This document shows, in pieces, positions 275 to 9,885 of a stretch of DNA of 10,542 nucleotides. Source of the stretch: JBHIER01 sp046760705 [NCBI: bacterium] (lineage in GTDB: Bacteria > JBHIER01 > G020348925). The notes beneath the pieces were generated by a model. That model was not told the DNA's origin. It made no database searches and saw only the letters and a list, made by a program, of their open reading frames with translations. The DNA is taken from contig JBHIER010000071.1 in assembly GCA_046760705.1 (NCBI GenBank), forward strand, positions 1 through 10,542. Direction: 5' to 3'. Numbering within the stretch: position 1 is the first letter of the stretch; every line of letters begins with the position of its first letter. The position numbers were made by a program, and so were the translations under genes.

Positions 275-330
275 AAGAAAAATAAAAAAAATGCTTGACA
301 TGGACTGTCTCACCCTTTATCTTATTGACA
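275..330 (+). promoter_or_regulatory. Sigma-70-type promoter with an A-rich upstream tract; second TTGACA box
   Basis: TTGACA (295-300) is followed by a 17-base spacer and TATCTT (318-323). An A-rich stretch at 275-291, like an UP element, lies just upstream of the -35 box. Transcription would start near 330. A second perfect TTGACA lies at 325-330, with only a weak -10 (TATTGG, 347-352) after a 16-base spacer; it would start near 359. Both would read into the structured RNA at 380-513. This is consensus matching only. Confidence 0.5.
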
Positions 331-379
331 CGAATTTGTGAAGACGTATTGGCAACTGAACGACAGTAAAAAAAGGAAA

Positions 380-513
380 GGCTTATAGAAGTTCGTTAAA
401 GGGTTTGGTTGTAGTGCTCTGTTGAGTGTGGTATCTGACTGAGGGCCAATTTGGGCTCTCAAAAAAGCGGTTTTGGAGCATCCAACCGAAGGCCCTGAAA
501 CGAGCTGTATGCC
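380..513 (+). ncRNA. Rod-shaped structured RNA with a central open bubble (unidentified; 6S-like shape)
   Basis: The two halves of this segment pair over about 30 base pairs. From the base upward: 380-387 with 506-513 (one U-U mismatch, one G-U), 391-397 with 499-505 (one G-U), GGG 401-403 with CCC 493-495, 404-411 with 483-490, and 415-419 with 476-480. Small bulges separate the helices. Above them is an open bubble (420-439 and 462-475), capped by an 8-bp stem-loop (440-447 with 454-461, loop AATTTG). A promoter lies upstream and an intrinsic terminator directly downstream. No convincing coding frame fits. The closing stem, central bubble and apical stem recall 6S RNA, the RNA-polymerase decoy of about 160-200 nt. 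I see no sequence signature that proves this. A cis-acting leader or an unknown riboswitch controlling the T9SS operon is the main alternative. Confidence 0.6.
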
Positions 514-522
514 AAACGTTTA

Positions 523-559
523 GGCCGGGTTGGACATGTTCTCAAGCCCGGTCTTTTTT
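523..559 (+). terminator. Intrinsic terminator
   Basis: GGCCGGG (523-529) pairs with CCCGGTC (547-553), with one G-U pair. Two further pairs (530-531 with 545-546) extend it to a 9-bp stem with a 13-base loop. Six T residues follow (554-559). It would end the transcript carrying the rod-shaped RNA. It stops eight bases before the ATG at 568, so it is either the end of an independent RNA gene or an attenuator for the operon. Confidence 0.7.
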
Positions 560-567
560 ATGGTGTT

Positions 568-3500
568 ATGGGCGCAGGACGGAAGATACAGACGGTGCTT
601 TTTGTTGTTCTTATTGCTACCGGATATGGTGGCGCGCTCCACGCGGACCGATCCGAAGGGGGCGGCCTTCTCCTTGGCCGGGCCGACGAGGAGGGGGTGG
701 CCTTCGATTATGTCCTGCCGGAAGTTGAGGAGATGAGCACCATGATCGAGGGCCAGGAGTATCATCTCCTGAGACTGGCCGGTTTCGGGTTTACAAACCA
801 GGTGGGGGCTCCCCAGTTGCCCCAGTTGAGGCTCCTTGTGGGCCTGCCCCTGAAAGGCGATGTCGAAGTGGCCATTCTTGGGGCCGAGTTTGAGGAGAGA
901 AGCGGCTATCGGGTGGCCCCGGTGCCAACCCTCTTTCGTTACACCGAAGATGGGACCGCTCTCTCTCGGAAGGAATATATCACCGATCCTGAGATCTATG
1001 CGGCCGATAGTTTTTACCCTCAACGTGTGATCGAGGTTGAGAAGCCCTCCTTTCTCAGAAATCAACGGGTCGCCGGAGTGGTGCTCCGCCCCGTCCAGTT
1101 CAATCCCGTCTCCGGGGCGCTGCGCCTCTATTCGAAGATCTCAGTCGAAGTCCGTTTCAAGAGGGGCAGCGTTGAGCCTGTTGGGCCCCAGAGGCCGTCG
1201 AGGGATCTCTTTGAGGATGTCTATCGCAGGGTGCTCATCAATTACGAGGCGGCGAAGCGGTGGCGGCGAGGGCCATCGGCCCTGAGGGAGGAAGGCTTTC
1301 TCTTCCAGGATGATCGGGACTGGTATAAGGTGAAAGTGAAAGAAGACGGGGTGTACAAATTGGATTCTGATGACCTATCAGAGGCCGGGATCGATGTGGC
1401 CAGCCTCGATCCGAGAAGAGTCCGGATCTTCAACGGCGGGGGCCGGGAATTGCCGAGGGATCTGTCAGCCTCCAGGCCCGATTCCCTCACTGAACTGGCC
1501 ATCAGCGTCAGGGGCGAGGGGGACGGCTCCTTCGACCCCGGCGATTACGTCCTCTTCTACGGCCAGGCCCTTTCGGGCTGGGATTACGATCCCGGAGAAG
1601 ATGTGTACACGCATTACGTTCACCATTACACCGACGACAACATCTACTGGCTGACCTTCGGGCCCGACGGGCCACTGGGGAAGCGGATGGCCTCGAGAGA
1701 TGGATCGTTGTACTCCCCAAATCCACTCTACCTCCAGAGCTTCCGGGATAGAACCCACGAAGAGATTGAGTTCATCAATCCCGCCGCCTCAGGCTTGACC
1801 TGGTTCTGGCGCACCTCATCCGGCGGCGAGACCGATGTCTTTCGGACGGAGTTGGAAGGAGCTGTTGCGGAATCTCTGTGCACCGTCACAGTGAGGATGA
1901 AAGGGAAGACGAGGGGTGAGTTGTGGCGACATGAGGTGAAAATATATTTCAACGGTCACCTCGTGGCCCACTCCACTTTTTCCAACGAAAATATCCTCCT
2001 GGTCCAGGAGGAGGGAAGGGGTTGGGTGGTCGATGGGGAGAACAAACTGAGAATTGAACATGTGGAACAGCCTGGCTCAGATTCATCGGAGAAAGACCAG
2101 ATATATTTCGACTGGTATGAGATCCGATACTGGCGCCGTTTCGAGGCCCAGGACGGGGAGCTTGAGTTCTTCAGCCCGAGAGGCCAGAAGGTGGTCGAAT
2201 ATAGTCTGTCCGGTTTCGCCGGCAACTCGGCGGTGGTGTACGATGTCACCGATCCGTTCAATGTGGTCGTTATTGAGAACCTGACCGTGGGAGAGACCCT
2301 CCGTTTTCAGGACCATCAGGACCCCTCCTTCGAGAGGCGGTACAGGGCTGTGGAGCTGGAAAGGGCCAAAAGTCCGGTGAGCATCGTCAGGGTTGAGCTG
2401 GGGGACCTCAGAGCCTCAACGAACGGGGCCGACTACCTGATTGTGACCCACGACGACTTTGTCCCGGAGGTGGAACCGCTGAGGGCGCACCGCCAGAGCT
2501 ACAACGGGTTCGCAGTGAAGGTGGTGAAGACTTCGGCAATCTATGACCAATTCTCCTGGGGACTCTTCGACCCGACGGCCATTCGGGATTTCTTAAAATA
2601 TGCCTTCGACAATTGGCACCCTCAACCCGCCTATGTTCTTCTCGTCGGAGACGGCAACTACGATTACAAAAATTACCTCCTGACCAGCCCTGGGAACTGG
2701 GTCCCGCCCTATGAGCAGGGGAGCGAAACCTATGATGACTGGTACGTTTACTTGGACGGTGACAAGGACTCGGACATGTTTGTCGGTCGGCTCCCGGCCC
2801 AATCGAGACGGCAGGTTCAGACCATGGTGGAGAAGGTGAAGGGGTATGATGACGAGCCGCAACTGGAGCCTTGGCGGAACAGGGTTCTCCTCCTGGCCGA
2901 TGACGAGCTGGTCCATTGTGACGAAATATCCTGGAACACGGTTCACGTTCGAGATACGGAAAAGTTGTCCCGCTCCTTGCCGAGAAACTTTGAACAGATC
3001 AAAATCTATCTCATGGATTACGAGCTGGATCAGTCTTGCGAGAAGCCAGAGGCGACAGAGGATCTGCTAACGCACCTGAACAGTGGGGTGGTCCTGTTCA
3101 ACTATATCGGTCACGGCGGATACAACGTGATGGCCGACGAACATGTCTTTCGCTCGTCAAAGGATCTGCCCCGGCTGCGCAACGAAGGGATGGCCTTCCT
3201 GTTGACGGCTTTCACCTGTGATGTGGGCGTCTTCGACCACCCCATAAACGAGGGCATGGCCGAGGATCTGGTCCGGATGGAAGGGAAGGGCGCAGTGGCC
3301 GCTATTGCCGCCACTCGAGGGACCTATTCTGGGCCCAATTTGGACCTGAACCGCAGGTTCTACGACAATCTCTTCGCGGGCGGGGCAGGTTTCGGGACGA
3401 CAGCCACCTTCGGTGAGGCCCTGGTAGAAGCTAAGGCGACGGCATCAAGTTTGTCTAATGCCAAGTTGTACCTTCTTTTCGGTGATCCTGCCCAAAGGCT

Positions 3501-4554
3501 GGGTGTGCCCCGGTATGAGGTGGTCATTACGCAACTTGAGCCGGACACCCTGCAGGCGCTGAGGGTGATCGCCCTGGAGGGAGAGACGGTCGGAACCGAT
3601 GGAAATGTACTGGAAGACTTCGATGGGACCGCGCTGGTGAATGTGTTCGACTCCTTCAAGGAGGTGGTCCACATCACCCCAGATACAAAAACAGAGGTGC
3701 CCTATCAACTCTCAGGAGCGGTGCTCTTCCGGGGGATTGCTCCGGTCGTCGATGGTTCATTTCGGACTCAGTTCGTGATTCCCAAAGACATCACCTACGG
3801 CGGAACGACGGGACGGATTAGCCTCTATGTATCGAACGACAACTACGACGGGGTTGGTTACCGGGACTCTCTGGTCACGGCAGGGGGTTCTGTTTGGGCC
3901 ATCGACTCCGTGGGCCCCCTCATCGACATGACCATAAAGGGGCGGGAGGAGACCTTTGCCGAGGGCGATTACGTCCAGCCTGGGGAGCTGTTGAAGGCCA
4001 CTCTCTTCGACAGCAGCGGGATCAATATCACCGGTGAGACCGGCCATTTGATTGTGCTTCAGACCGATGGCGACTCGCGCACCAGGGTGGACCTCACCCC
4101 CTATTTTGTCTACGACGAGGGGAGTTATCAGAAGGGCTGGGTCGAATATGAACTGTCGAACCTGGCCCCAGGGGAGCACACCTTGGAGATAAAGGCCTGG
4201 GACAATCATAACAACGCCTCGGTCCGGTCGCTCTTTCTGCGGATGGCCACGGCCGAGGATTTCCGAATACTCAACGTGATGAACTATCCGAACCCCCTTT
4301 TCAGGGAGACGACCTTCACTTATGAGTTGACACAGCCGGCAAATGGTGTTATCATTAAGATATATACGGTCGCCGGCCGACTGGTGAAGACCCTTTCGGC
4401 CCCAGGCGATCTGGGGTTCAATCAGACCAGTTGGGAGGCCCTGGACGAGGATGGTGACGCTCTGGCGAACGGTTTATATCTCTACAAGGTGATCGCCTCA
4501 GGGATCGGCGGACAGCGCCGGGAGCAGATTGGGCGACTCGTAATCATGAGATAG
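568..4554 (+). CDS. porU: PorU-like type IX secretion sortase (C25 cysteine peptidase)
   Basis: 1328 aa. PorU cleaves the C-terminal sorting domain from T9SS cargo at the outer membrane and helps attach it to the surface. A signal peptide is visible (GRKIQTVLFVVLIATGYG, likely cleavage after ALHA). A C25-propeptide-like region follows (about 40-200), then the DRDWYKVKVKEDGVYKLDSD segment typical of PorU. The gingipain-type domain (about 600-960) keeps both catalytic residues: His849 in YIGHGG and Cys884 in AFTCDVG. An Ig/FlgD-like C-terminal domain starts near 1235 (NYPNP, ending in GLYLYKVIASG). Start choice: 568 is the first ATG after an upstream in-frame stop at 496 and gives a proper signal peptide, but no Shine-Dalgarno site precedes it; a terminator hairpin does. 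The adjacent PorV-like gene supports PorU over a secreted gingipain-type protease, the main alternative. Confidence 0.8.
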   Translation: MGAGRKIQTVLFVVLIATGYGGALHADRSEGGGLLLGRADEEGVAFDYVLPEVEEMSTMIEGQEYHLLRLAGFGFTNQVGAPQLPQLRLLVGLPLKGDVEVAILGAEFEERSGYRVAPVPTLFRYTEDGTALSRKEYITDPEIYAADSFYPQRVIEVEKPSFLRNQRVAGVVLRPVQFNPVSGALRLYSKISVEVRFKRGSVEPVGPQRPSRDLFEDVYRRVLINYEAAKRWRRGPSALREEGFLFQDDRDWYKVKVKEDGVYKLDSDDLSEAGIDVASLDPRRVRIFNGGGRELPRDLSASRPDSLTELAISVRGEGDGSFDPGDYVLFYGQALSGWDYDPGEDVYTHYVHHYTDDNIYWLTFGPDGPLGKRMASRDGSLYSPNPLYLQSFRDRTHEEIEFINPAASGLTWFWRTSSGGETDVFRTELEGAVAESLCTVTVRMKGKTRGELWRHEVKIYFNGHLVAHSTFSNENILLVQEEGRGWVVDGENKLRIEHVEQPGSDSSEKDQIYFDWYEIRYWRRFEAQDGELEFFSPRGQKVVEYSLSGFAGNSAVVYDVTDPFNVVVIENLTVGETLRFQDHQDPSFERRYRAVELERAKSPVSIVRVELGDLRASTNGADYLIVTHDDFVPEVEPLRAHRQSYNGFAVKVVKTSAIYDQFSWGLFDPTAIRDFLKYAFDNWHPQPAYVLLVGDGNYDYKNYLLTSPGNWVPPYEQGSETYDDWYVYLDGDKDSDMFVGRLPAQSRRQVQTMVEKVKGYDDEPQLEPWRNRVLLLADDELVHCDEISWNTVHVRDTEKLSRSLPRNFEQIKIYLMDYELDQSCEKPEATEDLLTHLNSGVVLFNYIGHGGYNVMADEHVFRSSKDLPRLRNEGMAFLLTAFTCDVGVFDHPINEGMAEDLVRMEGKGAVAAIAATRGTYSGPNLDLNRRFYDNLFAGGAGFGTTATFGEALVEAKATASSLSNAKLYLLFGDPAQRLGVPRYEVVITQLEPDTLQALRVIALEGETVGTDGNVLEDFDGTALVNVFDSFKEVVHITPDTKTEVPYQLSGAVLFRGIAPVVDGSFRTQFVIPKDITYGGTTGRISLYVSNDNYDGVGYRDSLVTAGGSVWAIDSVGPLIDMTIKGREETFAEGDYVQPGELLKATLFDSSGINITGETGHLIVLQTDGDSRTRVDLTPYFVYDEGSYQKGWVEYELSNLAPGEHTLEIKAWDNHNNASVRSLFLRMATAEDFRILNVMNYPNPLFRETTFTYELTQPANGVIIKIYTVAGRLVKTLSAPGDLGFNQTSWEALDEDGDALANGLYLYKVIASGIGGQRREQIGRLVIMR

Positions 4555-4610
4555 GTGAGCAGGATGGAAGGGTGTCTGAAAAAGGCACAATGTATCACTT
4601 TTTAACCTTT

Positions 4611-4620
4611 GGAGGAGGGA
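4611..4620 (+). promoter_or_regulatory. Shine-Dalgarno site deciding the porV start
   Basis: GGAGGAGGGA lies a few bases before the ATG at 4626. That ATG also begins a clean signal peptide. An in-frame GTG at 4572 would add 18 residues ahead of it and has no comparable site, so 4626 is preferred. Confidence 0.8.
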
Positions 4621-4625
4621 GAGTC

Positions 4626-5681
4626 ATGAAGAGACTTCTCGGGGTTGGAGTTTTGGGAGCAGTACTTATTGTGTGCTCCTCGGAGGCCTTCGCCCAGAGT
4701 GAGGCGGCGGTACTCTATCTGATGATCAAGCCGGGGGCCCGGGCTGCTGGGGCTGGAGAGGCCTTCGTGGCCACGGCCGACGATGCCTGGGCTACTTACT
4801 ACAACCCGGCAGGTTTGGGCTTTCAAAGGGGCAAGGTCTTCGGCATGTCCCATACGAATTGGCTGCCAGCTTTTGCCAGCGACCTGTACCATGAGTATTT
4901 CGCCTATGCGTGGGAGCAGGAAGGCTGGGGCAATTTAGGTGTGAGTGCCATCTATATGTCATACGGCGAGCAGGTGAGGACAAGCGAGATCGGTGACGTA
5001 TTGGGGACGTTTCGATCCTTTGACACGGCCATAGGTGTCTCCTACGGGGCCCTTCTTTCGGACAGGTCGTCCGCAGGAGTGACCATGAAGATCCTATACA
5101 GCCGTTTGGCCCCCTTTGGGGCAGCGGCGGAGAAAGGATCAGGGACAGGGACATCATATGCCGTCGATCTCGGTTTTCTCATCAAAGATTTTCTGATGAG
5201 GGGTCTCTCCCTGGGGGTGGCTCTGCAGAACATGGGTCCCTCTATTGCTTACATCGATGTTGAGCAGGCCGATCCCCTACCGCAGAACTTGAAGATGGGT
5301 TTTGCCTATCAGATATTCGAATCTGAATACAACAGCCTCAAGTTGTCAGCCGATTTCAGCAAGATGTTAGTGAAGAAGGAGAAAGATAAGGCAGATCCCT
5401 TTTACAAGGCTCTGATCACCTCCTGGTTCGATCGACCCCTGAAGACAGAGATCGACGAGGTGATCGAGAACGTCGGCTTCGAATACTGGTACGGCTCCTG
5501 GGTCTCACTGAGAGCTGGGTTCTTCCGGGATACATACTTTAACACCGGGGAAGGAAAGCCGTACATGACTTTCGGAGCTGGACTGAAATACAGCATGTTC
5601 CAGTTCGATGCGGCCTATGTGCCTGCCTCGGAGACACCCTTAGCCGACAACACCCGTTTTTCCCTGACCCTGAGGTTCTGA
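4626..5681 (+). CDS. porV: PorV/PorQ-family T9SS outer-membrane protein
   Basis: 351 aa from the preferred ATG. PorV is an outer-membrane beta-barrel of the FadL-like class that receives T9SS cargo from the translocon and passes it to PorU. The signal peptide is MKRLLGVGVLGAVLIVCSSE with likely cleavage after AFA. The mature N-terminus has the family hallmark: LMIKPGARAAGAGEAF, then a segment including DDAWATYYNPAGL. The rest alternates short strands and turns, as in a barrel, and ends in a C-terminal aromatic strand (FSLTLRF). The gene lies 71 bases after the PorU-like gene and 48 bases before the M6-like gene, on the same strand. The porU-porV pairing is also known from Porphyromonas gingivalis. 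PorQ or another PorV paralogue is possible, because many non-Bacteroidota genomes carry several copies. Confidence 0.75.
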   Translation: MKRLLGVGVLGAVLIVCSSEAFAQSEAAVLYLMIKPGARAAGAGEAFVATADDAWATYYNPAGLGFQRGKVFGMSHTNWLPAFASDLYHEYFAYAWEQEGWGNLGVSAIYMSYGEQVRTSEIGDVLGTFRSFDTAIGVSYGALLSDRSSAGVTMKILYSRLAPFGAAAEKGSGTGTSYAVDLGFLIKDFLMRGLSLGVALQNMGPSIAYIDVEQADPLPQNLKMGFAYQIFESEYNSLKLSADFSKMLVKKEKDKADPFYKALITSWFDRPLKTEIDEVIENVGFEYWYGSWVSLRAGFFRDTYFNTGEGKPYMTFGAGLKYSMFQFDAAYVPASETPLADNTRFSLTLRF

Positions 5682-5713: not shown

Positions 5714-5732
5714 AGGAGGGGAGTGGCCAGTG
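5714..5732 (+). promoter_or_regulatory. Shine-Dalgarno site and GTG start of the M6-like gene
   Basis: AGGAGG (5714-5719) lies ten bases before the GTG at 5730. The GTG starts a protein with an immediate signal-peptide-like segment. A 16-codon open frame from the ATG at 5683 ends at a TGA (5731-5733) that overlaps this GTG, so translational coupling is possible. Confidence 0.6.
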
Positions 5733-8700
5733 ACCCTGAGCCGACTGTGGTCTTTGGGACTGCTTCTCGGGTTGATTCTTTCTGGTTCCGACAAGGTCAA
5801 TGGGCAGGGGGGCGGTTCTGTCCCCTCGAAGGCCCTTTCTCTCAAAAGGAGCGGGGTGTCCGCCTCCAACCTTTTGGGGATCGAAAGGAAGGGCCCTGGA
5901 CGTCTGCCAAAAGGGTCGATGGAGGGAGAATCTGATACGGTGAGGGTGCTGGCCCTCAGGGTCCAGTTCCAAAAGGATGACGAGCCGCAGACCACCGGGG
6001 ATGGTACCTTCGATCTGTCTACGAGCTCCGAGGCCGAGATCGATCCGCCACCTCACAATTACGGCTATTTCGAGCGCCACCTGCGGGCTCTGAGGAATTA
6101 CTACCACTCAGCTTCCCAGGGGAAATTGGTCATCCTTTCCACTCTGTACACCTGTGGAGGCGATTCTGACTACGTTTTCAACCTACCCCATCGGATGGCA
6201 TTTTATACCTCCGGTCCATCGAGTGAGGCCAACGATAGTCTGCTGGCCGTCTTTTTTCGAGATGTTATCCGCATGGTCGATACCACCTGTTCAATACAAT
6301 TCTCAGCCTACGACAGCTATCTCATCTTCCATGCTGGGGCAGGGCGCGAAAGTGATCTGAGGCGCAATTCGCCCAAAGATATCCCCTCGGCCTTCTATAG
6401 TTTTGATGATTTGAAGAAATATCTGGGCGGCGGCGATCCTACCTATGAGGGCATCCGGGTCAAGGAGGGATTCGTCCGCGAGGGGTTCTGGTTGCCGGAG
6501 ACGGAGAGTCAGGATGGTTATGAGCTTGGGCTCAACGGGATAGCGGCTCACCTTTTCGGTTATCAGTTGGGTTTGCCCAGTTTGTTCAAAACCGACCCCC
6601 ATCGGTCGGGCATCGGCCTATGGGGGCTCATGGATCATGGGTTCGAAAACGATTCGAGCCGCGTTCCGGCGCAGCCGTGCGCATGGTCGAAGGCCTTTTT
6701 GGGATGGGTTGAGCCCTATGAAGTCAAGGGAAGTGTACACACTTTGATTGCCGCCTGGGCTCTGAACAGCGATTCTATCGAGGTGGTCAAAGTCTCCATC
6801 ACACCCACAGAGTATTTTTTGATCGAGAATCGGCAACAGGATGTGAATGGGGATGGAACGGTTGTGAAAACAATCGAGGAGGGCGTCGTCATCGACGTTG
6901 ACGAGTACGATTGGTTTATACCCGGATCTGGGCTCTTAATCTGGCACATCGACGAGGAGGTGATCGCCGCCAACTACTGGGAGAACAAGGTGAACGCCAA
7001 TCCCGGCCACCGGGGCGTTGATTTAGAGGAGGCCGACGGCGTCCAGGAGATCGGCACCAGCTACGGATATATTTATGGCCAAAAGGAAGACGCCTATTAT
7101 GCCGGGAATGAATCGTGGGAGTTGGCCAATCCTCTATTGGATGAGGTCTCCTTCACCCCAACATCTGTTCCCAACAGCCGGAGCTATTCAGGGGCAAACA
7201 GCCACATTCATGTGACGGACATCGGCGTTTCTAAACCAGTTATGACTTTTAAAGTCTCCCTTGATACCTATCAACCGGGTTGGCCTCAAATTTTGGGCTC
7301 TTCCATCGGCACGAATTCACCTGTTTTCGGTGATTTGGACAACGACGGGGATATTGAAGTTGTTCTGACCTCAGAAGACGGGAGGGTTTTTGTATGGAAT
7401 GAAGATGGGTCCAAGTTCATTCAAAATTCTGACTCGGTGTTTGTGCTTGATCCAAAGGGCGATACTCTCTGGGTTCGAGCGGCGATTTTTGCTGAGACGG
7501 GCGATTCAATCTTTTCTTCTCCTGCATCAGGCGATATTGACGGAGATGGAGACTTGGAGGTTGTCATCGGATCGGACGGTGAGAGGGTGTATGCCTGGCA
7601 TCATACTGATAATAATCCTTCCGACGGAAGGGGTGATCTCGTTGAGGGGTTTCCTGTTGAGCTCGAATCGAAAATCCGATCTTCAGTGGTCATTGCTGAC
7701 ATGGATGCGGAGGCCCCAGGGTTGGAGATAGTAGTGGGGACAATGGATGGAAGGCTATTCCTTGTGTATTCTGATGGGGATAAACGTTTGCTCAAAACTT
7801 TTGAAAACGACGCTATTAAGGCAACCACGGCTGTAGCCGACATCGACGGCGATGGGGCTCTTGAGATCGTCGTTGTCACTGAGAAGGGGAGCATGCAGGC
7901 AATTAGGTTTGATCGGAGTGATTTGGGTTGGACTATAACTGTCGATTCGCCAATAGTATCTTCACCCGTGATTGGTGATATTGATAGAGATAATACGAAT
8001 GAAATTGTCGTTGTCAGTGGCGCAGGGAAAATTTACGCTTTTCGTTCTGATCGTAATCCAATCTACAATTGGCCCGTGGAGGTGGGAGATCATTTCGAAT
8101 CTTCTCCGGCCCTGGGTGATATCGATGGTGATGGATATTTAGAGATAGTCGTCTCTGGCACGAATAAAATATATGCCTTCAATTACAATGGTTCAGCGCT
8201 TCCCAATTGGCCCGTGACGGTGGATCGAACAGATCCTGTGGGTGTTGTTATTAGCTCTTCACCTGTCATTGGAGATATTGATGGTGACAAAGATTTGGAG
8301 GTTGTGGTCGGTTCGCCCAAAGGGCAGCTTCTGGCTTACCATCATGATGGAACTGTGGTGGATGGTTTTCCGCTTCCTTGTGGGGGAGAGGTCAATTCAA
8401 CGCCGGCCCTGTTGGATGTTGATGGTGGTGGGGATGTTGAGGTGATGGTCGGGTCTGATGACGGGTACCTGTATATGTGGGATCTTCCTGGGACGTACAA
8501 TGATGAAAACATCCCATGGCCAATGTATGCTCATGACGTCCAACATACAGGTGCCTTTCCCATGGATCAACTGCCCCCCGAAATCCCGGAGGAAGAGCTT
8601 CTTTCCGAGACGTCGGTGTACAATTTTCCCAATCCGACAGAGGGCAATTCGACGTTGATTCGTTACCGTTTGGGTGAAGAAGCCTCGGTCACGATCAAGA

Positions 8701-8879
8701 TCTTCAATCTTGCCGGAGAATTAGTGGACAAGTTCACGGGACCTGGATATGCTCACACCGAGAACGAAGTTCGCTGGGATCTCACTGATTTTGCCACCGG
8801 TGTCTACATCTGTCGGGTTGAGGCCACCGGGGCGATAAAGACCAAGACGGCTTTTTGCAAGATTGCAGTGGTTAAATGA
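5730..8879 (+). CDS. Secreted M6-metallopeptidase-like protein, probably inactive, with FG-GAP propeller and T9SS sorting domain
   Basis: 1049 aa. A hydrophobic signal segment (LWSLGLLLGLILSG) is followed by an M6 (immune-inhibitor-A-like) domain at about 67-450. Recognisable M6 landmarks are FHAGAGRESD, GIGLWGLM, GLLIWHIDEE (His406) and DLEEADG (433-437). The zinc-site motif, normally HExxH followed by GLPD, reads HLFGYQLGLPS at 274-284. The catalytic Glu (Leu275), the second His (Tyr278) and the Asp (Ser284) are all replaced, so proteolysis is unlikely. Eight FG-GAP/VCBS-type repeats with GDIDGDGxxEVVV cores begin near residues 534, 601, 656, 703, 749, 796, 848 and 895, which fits a calcium-binding beta-propeller. 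A T9SS type-A-like sorting domain (about 961-1049: YNFPNP, IKIFNLAGE, GVYICRVEATG) follows. It is probably exported, displayed by the adjacent PorU/PorV, and used for binding rather than cleavage. The propeller-coding part is poorer in GC than the rest of the gene. Confidence 0.78.
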   Translation: MTLSRLWSLGLLLGLILSGSDKVNGQGGGSVPSKALSLKRSGVSASNLLGIERKGPGRLPKGSMEGESDTVRVLALRVQFQKDDEPQTTGDGTFDLSTSSEAEIDPPPHNYGYFERHLRALRNYYHSASQGKLVILSTLYTCGGDSDYVFNLPHRMAFYTSGPSSEANDSLLAVFFRDVIRMVDTTCSIQFSAYDSYLIFHAGAGRESDLRRNSPKDIPSAFYSFDDLKKYLGGGDPTYEGIRVKEGFVREGFWLPETESQDGYELGLNGIAAHLFGYQLGLPSLFKTDPHRSGIGLWGLMDHGFENDSSRVPAQPCAWSKAFLGWVEPYEVKGSVHTLIAAWALNSDSIEVVKVSITPTEYFLIENRQQDVNGDGTVVKTIEEGVVIDVDEYDWFIPGSGLLIWHIDEEVIAANYWENKVNANPGHRGVDLEEADGVQEIGTSYGYIYGQKEDAYYAGNESWELANPLLDEVSFTPTSVPNSRSYSGANSHIHVTDIGVSKPVMTFKVSLDTYQPGWPQILGSSIGTNSPVFGDLDNDGDIEVVLTSEDGRVFVWNEDGSKFIQNSDSVFVLDPKGDTLWVRAAIFAETGDSIFSSPASGDIDGDGDLEVVIGSDGERVYAWHHTDNNPSDGRGDLVEGFPVELESKIRSSVVIADMDAEAPGLEIVVGTMDGRLFLVYSDGDKRLLKTFENDAIKATTAVADIDGDGALEIVVVTEKGSMQAIRFDRSDLGWTITVDSPIVSSPVIGDIDRDNTNEIVVVSGAGKIYAFRSDRNPIYNWPVEVGDHFESSPALGDIDGDGYLEIVVSGTNKIYAFNYNGSALPNWPVTVDRTDPVGVVISSSPVIGDIDGDKDLEVVVGSPKGQLLAYHHDGTVVDGFPLPCGGEVNSTPALLDVDGGGDVEVMVGSDDGYLYMWDLPGTYNDENIPWPMYAHDVQHTGAFPMDQLPPEIPEEELLSETSVYNFPNPTEGNSTLIRYRLGEEASVTIKIFNLAGELVDKFTGPGYAHTENEVRWDLTDFATGVYICRVEATGAIKTKTAFCKIAVVK

Positions 8880-9287: not shown

Positions 9288-9316
9288 TTGACATTATGAT
9301 TAAAACTTCTTATTAT
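9288..9316 (+). promoter_or_regulatory. Consensus-like promoter overlapping the start of the first small gene
   Basis: TTGACA (9288-9293), a 17-base spacer and TATTAT (9311-9316) form a near-consensus sigma-70 promoter. Transcription would start near 9323, which is inside the reading frame that begins at 9296. If it is real, the first gene's start is wrong or the promoter mainly serves the second gene. In DNA this AT-rich a chance match is possible, though the 17-base spacing and an 11 of 12 consensus match make it notable. Confidence 0.4.
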
Positions 9317-9601
9317 TTAAATCTCAGGGCTGAGAAAGAATTCCTCAAATCTCTGGGAACCAAGGAAACTGACCCACTGAGAATGAAACTCGTTACGGAG
9401 AAAGGAAAAGTAGTCAGCCTATTGGTCCAATATGAAACCTATATTGAAGATCAGTGGCGCGCTATTGTCCGTTACAATACGGCTCATGGCTTTCCTCACC
9501 GAGATGTTATTCATCCAAATGGAGGCGAAGAAAAATTTTCCCTGTCTTTCCCAGATTTGAAGACAGCGTTACAATATGCTGAACAGGATATCAAAGATTG
9601 A
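9296..9601 (+). CDS. Small uncharacterised protein (DUF7718-like), truncated by an in-frame TGA
   Basis: 101 aa as read to the TGA at 9599-9601. The core KGKVVSLLVQYETYI, WRAIVRYNTAHGFPHRDVIH and NGGEEK resembles, from memory, a family of small uncharacterised proteins (DUF7718). Its function is unknown. After the TGA the same frame continues as WQWYRERYIKEMKK to a second TGA (9647-9649). That stop overlaps the ATG of the next gene as ATGA, and as I recall family members usually end in such a W-YRER tail. The first TGA therefore looks like a nonsense change that removes the last 14 residues. No Shine-Dalgarno site precedes the ATG at 9296, and a promoter-like match overlaps it. The next in-frame ATG is at 9383 (residue 30). 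GC content is far below that of the T9SS genes, which suggests separate origin. Confidence 0.6.
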   Translation: MIKTSYYLNLRAEKEFLKSLGTKETDPLRMKLVTEKGKVVSLLVQYETYIEDQWRAIVRYNTAHGFPHRDVIHPNGGEEKFSLSFPDLKTALQYAEQDIKD

Positions 9602-9649
9602 TGGCAATGGTACCGCGAACGATACATCAAGGAGATGAAGAAAAAATGA
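9602..9649 (+). pseudogene. Detached C-terminal tail of the preceding gene
   Basis: In the frame of the preceding gene, after its TGA, codons 9602-9643 read WQWYRERYIKEMKK, then one more Lys and a TGA at 9647-9649. The stretch also carries the AAGGAG site (9629-9634) for the next gene. Its protein-like content and the ATGA junction indicate that it once belonged to the upstream coding region. It could still be made by read-through. Confidence 0.55.
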
Positions 9650-9885
9650 AGGAACAAGAAGTCATTCAAAGAGATATTGGGTTGACTTTTGATTTTTTAC
9701 GATATTTAATTGATAACCCTCAGATTGTTGACGAAATTCCTGACGGCGCTGAGTTGATTTTTTTATGCAATGAGTTTCCTTTGAAGATAGATGCCACCCA
9801 TGCAACACAGCTTAAGCAAGGGGAAAAAATTATCTTTAATTGCCGTCATATCTTTGAGCCAGTTCGTTTAGTAACTGAGGAGTAA
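9646..9885 (+). CDS. Small uncharacterised protein (DUF5647-like)
   Basis: 79 aa (MKEQEVIQRDIGLTFDFLRY..., ending RLVTEE). The pattern of an N-terminal helix, then LIDNPQIVDEIPDGAELIFL and a short beta-rich end, resembles from memory the DUF5647 family of small proteins of unknown function. There is no signal peptide or membrane segment, so it is probably cytoplasmic. Start choice: the ATG at 9646 has AAGGAG 11 bases upstream and forms an ATGA overlap with the original stop of the preceding gene. In-frame TTG 9598 and ATG 9601 would add 15-16 residues that simply read the upstream gene's tail in another frame, so they are less likely. The coupled arrangement suggests that the two small proteins act together. 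A toxin-antitoxin role is conceivable but nothing in the sequence proves it. It ends 10 bases from the convergent ABC gene. Confidence 0.6.
   Translation: MKEQEVIQRDIGLTFDFLRYLIDNPQIVDEIPDGAELIFLCNEFPLKIDATHATQLKQGEKIIFNCRHIFEPVRLVTEE

Follow-up and report, generated by a model that had tools for sequence, protein, structure and literature searches.

A candidate transcription attenuator upstream of porU, from an RNA family preceding type IX secretion genes

Leaders of the trp, pyr, T-box and SAM types are attenuators or transcriptional riboswitches that work through an intrinsic terminator. The element described here, located upstream of porU in the window (the whole 10,542-nt stretch of DNA analysed), resembles them in its layout, with a promoter, a structured leader and a terminator beside the first gene, and in having a strand able to pair either within the leader or with an arm of the terminator. 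It differs from them in that its family has no Rfam match, in its type IX secretion system (T9SS) targets, in an AGGAG-N5-8-AU[AC] box and, in part of the phylum of genome G010, in a helix between the 5′ end and early porU codons. A rod-like fold and a promoter and terminator of its own are also found in 6S RNA (RF00013), from which the window element differs by the lack of a covariance-model match, by its cis position before T9SS genes and by the presence of two elements in the related genome G001. T9SS is best known from Bacteroidota, in which protein regulators have been described. PorX and PorY regulate T9SS components in Porphyromonas gingivalis (PMC8050853) and are proteins acting at promoters, whereas the window carries a leader RNA. 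No T9SS leader RNA was found among the matches listed in the open-licence literature on type IX secretion, porU or sprA and structured RNAs; the available passages of PMC9723704 mention PorU twice, and also 5′ regulatory RNAs, with no porU leader RNA among them.

The porU leader of the window and its counterparts in G001

A sigma-70-like promoter (TTGACA-N17-TATCTT, 10 of 12 consensus bases) lies on the plus strand at positions 295–323, as originally predicted, and is conserved in G001. The match is weak evidence by itself, because 0.8 such sites are expected by chance in shuffled sequence, but it gains weight from the conservation of CTTGACAT...TATCTTA in G001; the transcript would be expected to start near position 330. 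The intrinsic terminator proposed at the same time was also recovered on the plus strand, with a stem at 522–554 and a run of six T residues at 554–559 (−16.4 kcal/mol); a simple scan had missed it, probably because its loop exceeds the 3–8 nt allowed in that scan. It ends at position 559, 8 bases ahead of the start codon of porU (568), and the distance from the start of the T-run to the ATG, in the strict terminator test described below, is 14 nt both in the window and in the porU leader of G001. The coordinates of the original prediction were correct to within a few bases, and the element is to be grouped with the start of porU at 568.

The porU gene (568–4554, plus strand) encodes the type IX secretion sortase, a C25 peptidase (NF033707, E = 7e-237; PF01364, Peptidase_C25), and is presumed to be the gene controlled by the leader. 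A porV-family gene on the same strand (4572–5681; NF033709, E = 2.7e-79) probably belongs to the same operon. As there is little room for a second promoter and leader between the terminator and the start codon, porU would most simply be transcribed through the terminator. Further downstream, positions 5730–8879 contain a gene for a T9SS-dependent M6-like inactivated metalloprotease with a T9SS sorting tail (576.4 bits, just below the NCBIfam cut-off of 600 bits), and a small neighbouring gene pair, DUF7718 and DUF5647, occupies 9296–9885. At the other end, a terminator-like site was seen on the minus strand at 181–193, and positions 1–270 were assigned to no gene family here.

The rod-like fold suggested for this region was borne out by comparison with shuffled sequences: positions 330–562 reach a folding energy of −82.5 kcal/mol, equalled by 0 of 200 shuffles (z = −4.60), and positions 364–520 alone give a z value of −4.44 (0 of 200). 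In the minimum free energy (MFE) fold, 390–397 pair with 499–506, 400–411 pair with 483–489 and 492–496, and the anticipated 8-bp apical stem joins 440–447 to 454–461. All the parts lie on the plus strand. The first, AGGAAAGG (374–381), is a degenerate counterpart of the family AGGAG(G) box, according to alignments with the models R2 and R3 presented below; GGAG, AGGAG or GGAGG is present in 38 of 46 family rows. The TATAG at 384–388 is matched by sequence to a family TAT[AC]G element, for which the family counts are suggestive only, and its AUA (385–387) opens AUA-GAA-GUU-CGU-UAA (385–399), a possible mini-ORF. The 5′ strand of the rod, AGTTCGTTAAAGGGTTTGGTTG (390–411), is the most conserved block, as judged from the MFE fold and the comparison with G001, and is followed by a variable apical part (412–480), which includes the apical stem (440–461) and has diverged in G001. 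The 3′ strand (481–506), recognised from the fold and from its family equivalents, comprises TCCAACC (481–487), GGCCC (491–495) and AACGAGCT (499–506), and is able to pair either with 390–411 or with the 5′ arm of the terminator.

The nearest genome by PorU sequence was CP070758.1 (L001, hereafter referred to as G001), with 66% identity; it is the sole member of its class and phylum among the genomes compared. The promoter, both strands of the rod and the terminator are conserved in its porU leader, and the apical part has diverged. G001 carries a second element upstream of sprA, in which TTGACA-N17-TAATTT is followed by AAAAGGAGG...TATATCCGTTCGTTAAGGGAGTTGGTTG ... GAGCAACCAAGGCCTTTGAACGAACG and a terminator. 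This second leader folds with a z value of −8.05 (0 of 200 shuffles as good) and has a 21-nt core in common with the window (391–411), with three mismatches. Its terminator carries AAAGGCC-A-GGTTG, the complement of CAACC-AA-GGCCTTT in the same leader, a match equalled by 8 of 500 shuffles; read from the sequences, this is the same design as TCCAACC-GAA-GGCC / GGCC-G-GGTTGGA in the window. The two G001 leaders align locally over a 21-nt core only, indicating that the design has been kept more than the sequence. The model R1, built from the window and the G001 porU leader, matched the G001 sprA leader with an E-value of 0.0086. A first search of G001 with R1 had returned the porU leader only (E = 0.1), and a search of 51 sources returned the window, L001, the antisense of L001 (E = 0.049) and L060 (E = 1.5). 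In a BLAST search of 98 genomes, the G001 leader matched G001 alone, and a pattern scan of viral contigs gave no match.

Related leaders in other phyla

Among 290 relatives of G001, 45 had PorU at an E-value of 1e-60; PorU was also detected in 120 of the 132 genomes of the G010 phylum and, as a match, in all 10 genomes of the G268 phylum. A strict test, in which a terminator had to lie 5–35 nt before the start codon, replaced a looser one to which 21 of 258 genes were positive. Strict terminators were found at 6 of 45 porU loci (drawn from L016–L065, with the truncated L039 left out, as were L025, L040, L042 and L043, which other versions of these regions replaced) versus 7 of 257 other genes (Fisher p = 0.006), the comparison set excluding an eighth positive, which was G001 porU itself; the window also has such a terminator and stands outside the six. 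In the G010 and G268 phyla, a motif of the GTTAAAGG/GCTAAAGG/GTTAACG type was present in 59 of 111 upstream regions (L144, with 79 bases, being excluded), and a looser 5′ pattern fitted 82 of the 111, with some anchors wrong.

A MAFFT alignment of 29 leaders (A5), 22 of which were chosen by pattern and seven added by hand, gave a consensus with AGGAG-N7-TATAGC-N3-ACGGTTAA(C/A)G in the 5′ part and GGCCC-N3-AACCGT-GCTATA ... GGTTCC-GGGCCGGGT...ACCCGG in the 3′ part, followed by the porU start. Neither the model R2 (29 leaders) nor the model R3 (47 leaders of another phylum) includes the window or G001; the 47-leader alignment (A7), from which L148 was left out, was produced by alignment to the model. 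R2 matched the window at 25.2 bits (E = 0.0014), the best match among 44 sources (176 kb), and in a larger search (97 sources, 579 kb) the window was among 31 matches, with an E-value of 0.0047; G001 (L001) was aligned weakly and out of register (E = 0.038 and 0.13). With R3, the window scored 45.3 bits (E = 2e-5; 48 sources, 520 kb) and L001 was matched in register (E = 0.0017), the third match being L047, another porU upstream region (E = 0.17); all R2 and R3 E-values are rough, owing to short calibration. Neither model had any match in 19 random 20-kb pieces (380 kb; L067–L086 without L072, which contains G001 porU). The alignment sets the AGGAAAGG, TATAG, GTTAAAGG, GCCCTGAAAC stretch, GCTGTA and GGCCGGG hairpin of the window on the family blocks.

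Within the 132 genomes of the G010 phylum, R3 had exactly one match in each of 67 genomes at an E-value cut-off of 0.05, and 60 of these matches immediately precede porU, with both on one contig and one strand. Three others (L210, L211 and L215) precede PorU as identified by NF033707, with partial-length scores below the cut-off because the contigs end; three (L212–L214) precede short fragments resembling PorU N-termini, by reading only; and one (G405, E = 0.043) precedes sprA (TIGR04189, E = 8.6e-41). The count near porU is biased, because many of the 67 had served to train the model, whereas the absence of other R3 matches in those genomes at this cut-off is free of training bias. Over 386 relatives of G001, R3 returned only G275 (E = 0.007) under strict filters that left 8 of 606 candidates scored; the leader of G001 itself was not returned, so that absence from this search means little. 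The G275 member (L217:1501–1662; R3 E = 0.007 / 0.00028) has no porU visible behind it, and the next start seen is at 1919, about 260 nt downstream; G275 has sprA and lies outside the PorU genomes at 1e-60. Reading of 17 sprA upstream regions (within L218–L236) showed that 12 fit the 5′ pattern. These 12 keep AGGAGG-N-TAT[AC] with an in-frame stop shortly after it, and in many of them a full rod cannot be seen. Few sprA upstream regions were matched by R3 (G405, E = 0.0011; L236, E = 0.036; the rest at 0.3 or above).

The pairing of the rod and last hairpin in the family is supported by covariation. In A5, the rod and last hairpin were paired in 87.7% of cells, versus at most 45.2% in slid versions, with 26 double-change cells versus 12.1 in shuffles (0 of 500 as good); the A5 rows had been selected for recognisable 5′ and 3′ motifs, and mostly also for the last hairpin, which raises the percentages paired. 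In A7, 84.6% were paired, with 55 double changes versus 21.3 in shuffles (0 of 500), but this alignment was fitted to the model and its pair counts lean toward the structure, making A5 the cleaner test. Although shuffling leaves the relatedness of the rows uncorrected, double changes exceed the control by a wide margin. The compensatory changes sought in the porU upstream regions of relatives are present in both alignments.

The window is, as far as sequence comparison goes, a member of an RNA family that precedes T9SS genes and matches no Rfam family: at gathering scores, none of the Rfam 15 families matches the window or 20 related loci. The Rfam search envisaged at the outset revealed neither a 6S RNA (RF00013) nor a riboswitch. 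The weak matches obtained in positions 200–620 (6A, L20 leader, anti-hemB, ArcZ, CrcZ and gut-2; E = 0.53–9.2) fell far below the gathering scores and were rejected as chance-level. The leaders of G002 and G156 (L020 and L026) have a terminator and a rod-like fold before porU and no match to R1, R2 or R3, and were kept apart from the family. Leaders of the G268 phylum share the layout but do not match R2 or R3, and their relationship to the family is unproven.

Alternative pairing between the rod and the terminator

The 5′ arm of the window terminator (GGCC-G-GGTTGGA, 523–534) is complementary to positions 481–494 (−22.6 kcal/mol; 4 of 500 shuffles as good). The same complementarity was found in leaders of unrelated sequence from G145 (8 of 500), G268 (7 of 500) and G010 (1 of 500); it was weaker in G001 porU (37 of 500, or 15 of 500 with a slightly longer arm), and none was detected in G002 and G156 (392 and 352 of 500, respectively). 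In the five pairing leaders (the window, G145, G268, G010 and G001 porU), the upstream strand lies 26–57 nt ahead of the arm; as a control, one of 30 ordinary terminators pairs as well, and none does so with a partner at −60 to −15. At the level of the family, the antiterminator was paired in 88.0% of cells, versus at most 61.3% when slid. In shuffle tests on the 35 of 47 family rows with a hairpin recognised by pattern, 22 were equalled by no more than 5 of 100 shuffles, and 13 failed. The antiterminator pairing shows only weak covariation of its own (15 of 500 shuffles), and 42 of 5000 permutations of the partners did as well as the true pairs.

Leaders were also folded with the 5′ box and rod strand forced to remain unpaired. 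In five hand-chosen family leaders, the antiterminator probability ranged from 0.36 to 0.77, with values of 0.74, 0.77 and 0.71 for L135, L183 and L137; the terminator stayed likelier in L142 (antiterminator 0.36 versus 0.48) and in G001 porU (0.23 versus 0.43), and the antiterminator probability was 0.46 in G001 sprA and 0.01 in the window. Blocking the 5′ strand of the window at equilibrium leaves the terminator with a probability of 0.76–0.82, versus 0.03–0.09 for the antiterminator. When the nascent transcript is stopped at position 541, before the 3′ arm exists, the antiterminator probability is 0.54–0.70. A change of fold is thus predicted only for the nascent transcript, and the switch of the window would have to be kinetic.

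These sequences contain a promoter, a conserved rod, a terminator that stops just short of the start codon and a 3′ strand recurrently complementary to the 5′ arm of the terminator, and two mutually exclusive structures, one containing the intrinsic terminator, are predicted. We consider it likely that the window element is a cis-acting transcription attenuator of porU. The alternative offered in the original prediction, a cis-regulatory leader for a T9SS operon, is supported by the conserved position before porU across phyla, by covariation and by the alternative pairing with the last hairpin. Formation of the rod would hide the 3′ strand and allow the terminator to form, so that transcription would yield no more than a short RNA of about 230 nt. 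If the 5′ strand (390–411) were occupied, 481–494 would capture the terminator arm (523–534), and RNA polymerase would read through, with expression of porU and porV. Several family hairpins lack a T-run, indicating that termination is not the mechanism everywhere; in relatives in which such a hairpin touches the start codon, the same switch may act on translation.

Candidate triggers and implications for T9SS control

The trigger that we tentatively favour is a ribosome or 30S subunit at AGGAG-N5-8-AU(A/C), which would cover the 5′ strand of the rod and make the leader a sensor of translation initiation. The family motif was recognised in 89 of the 130 upstream sequences counted. Among these, AUA or AUC, with an AGGAG-like box mostly 5–8 nt before it, stood at the codon position in 73 of the 77 porU leaders and in 10 of the 12 sprA upstream regions; at that position, the sprA upstream region of G275 has AUG. 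In clustered sequences, stops within four codons were commoner in the frame of this codon (frame 0), being found in frames 0, 1 and 2 in 30, 22 and 15 of 49 porU leaders and in 8, 3 and 4 of 10 sprA upstream regions; a few rows were misplaced by the anchoring, including L104, the sole porU row with AUG. This frame bias is modest, and the mini-ORF reading suggestive. In Escherichia coli, infC has AUU as its start codon and is regulated via IF3. The likeness lies in an AU(N) codon other than AUG, spaced as for a Shine-Dalgarno sequence; unlike infC, the AUA or AUC here would open at most a short, putative ORF.

The same attenuator might instead respond to a small molecule bound by the rod, as a true riboswitch, a reading to which we give a minor share of our belief. 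The promoter, structured domain and expression platform stand in the order that it would predict, and the blocks GTTAA[AC]G and GGCCC are conserved inside paired regions beyond the needs of pairing; it is weakened by the lack of an Rfam riboswitch match, by the lack, on inspection by eye, of a conserved internal or junction loop resembling a binding pocket, and by the nature of the controlled genes, which encode secretion machinery rather than metabolic functions. Binding of the rod by a protein, either an RNA-binding regulator or a T9SS component, such that porU and sprA follow secretion demand, appears similarly doubtful. The element precedes two core T9SS genes in G001, and G405 has both the R3 match before sprA noted above and, by eye, a GTTAAAGG motif in its porU upstream region (L102), but no candidate protein has been identified.

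A classical leader-peptide attenuator, using the GTG frame at 338–388, whose end coincides with the foot of the rod, is very improbable: the open frame, of 16 codons in the window and 15 in G001, does end at the same aligned place, by eye, but conservation of TATAG/TATAA would by itself produce such a shared stop, and inspection by eye showed neither a ribosome-binding site before the GTG of the window nor any peptide similarity. Least probable of all is the 6S-type RNA of the original prediction, a free transcript binding RNA polymerase and adjoining porU by chance, which would account for the rod shape, the promoter and terminator of its own and the length of about 230 nt, and was rejected because RF00013 has no match in the window at the gathering score, in positions 200–620 at an E-value of 10 or in G001, because G001 has two elements, each before a T9SS gene, and in view of the 60 of 67 R3 matches directly before porU, the several members without a terminator T-run and the aligned rods of only about 100 nt (by eye). 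Of 31 genomes with such leaders (G001 and 30 others), 0 had an RF00013 match, a point in favour of a 6S role, and 6S RNA elsewhere in the genome is consequently unusable as an argument; above the cut-off, 23 of 59 relatives of G001 had a match.

If the ribosome is the trigger, the family might constitute a T9SS riboregulon, in which one RNA family controls porU and sprA in at least two phyla by sensing translation initiation; we put this forward as a speculative extension. It would combine a ribosome-binding box, a near-cognate AUA or AUC and a mini-ORF only a few codons long; with a ribosome held at the box, the 5′ strand of the rod would be covered, and the antiterminator would form. In part of one phylum, pairing between the 5′ end of the transcript and early porU codons would close the whole leader. 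This helix (P0), involving the presumed transcript 5′ end, had a mean energy in the G010 phylum of −12.55 kcal/mol for matched versus −10.30 kcal/mol for mismatched partners (0 of 5000 permutations as good; 45 of 47 rows used), and of −14.54 versus −11.41 kcal/mol in the GGCCC subgroup (27 rows). As it was seen in that subgroup, P0 was not taken as family-defining; in the window and G001 porU, 86 and 119 of 500 shuffles, respectively, were as good, and P0 was not recognised there. In L112, L130, L135, L183, L194 and others, TTATACA pairs with TGTATAA, and these early codons encode a recurrent LYK in the N-terminus of PorU.

The leader adds an RNA family with no match in Rfam 15, with a predicted two-state switch amenable to testing in vitro. 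Should ribosomes prove to bind the AGGAG-N5-8-AU(A/C) box, it would represent an uncommon type of sensor. For uncultured phyla, a conserved leader RNA before porU, and sometimes before sprA, gives a direct handle on the control of T9SS.
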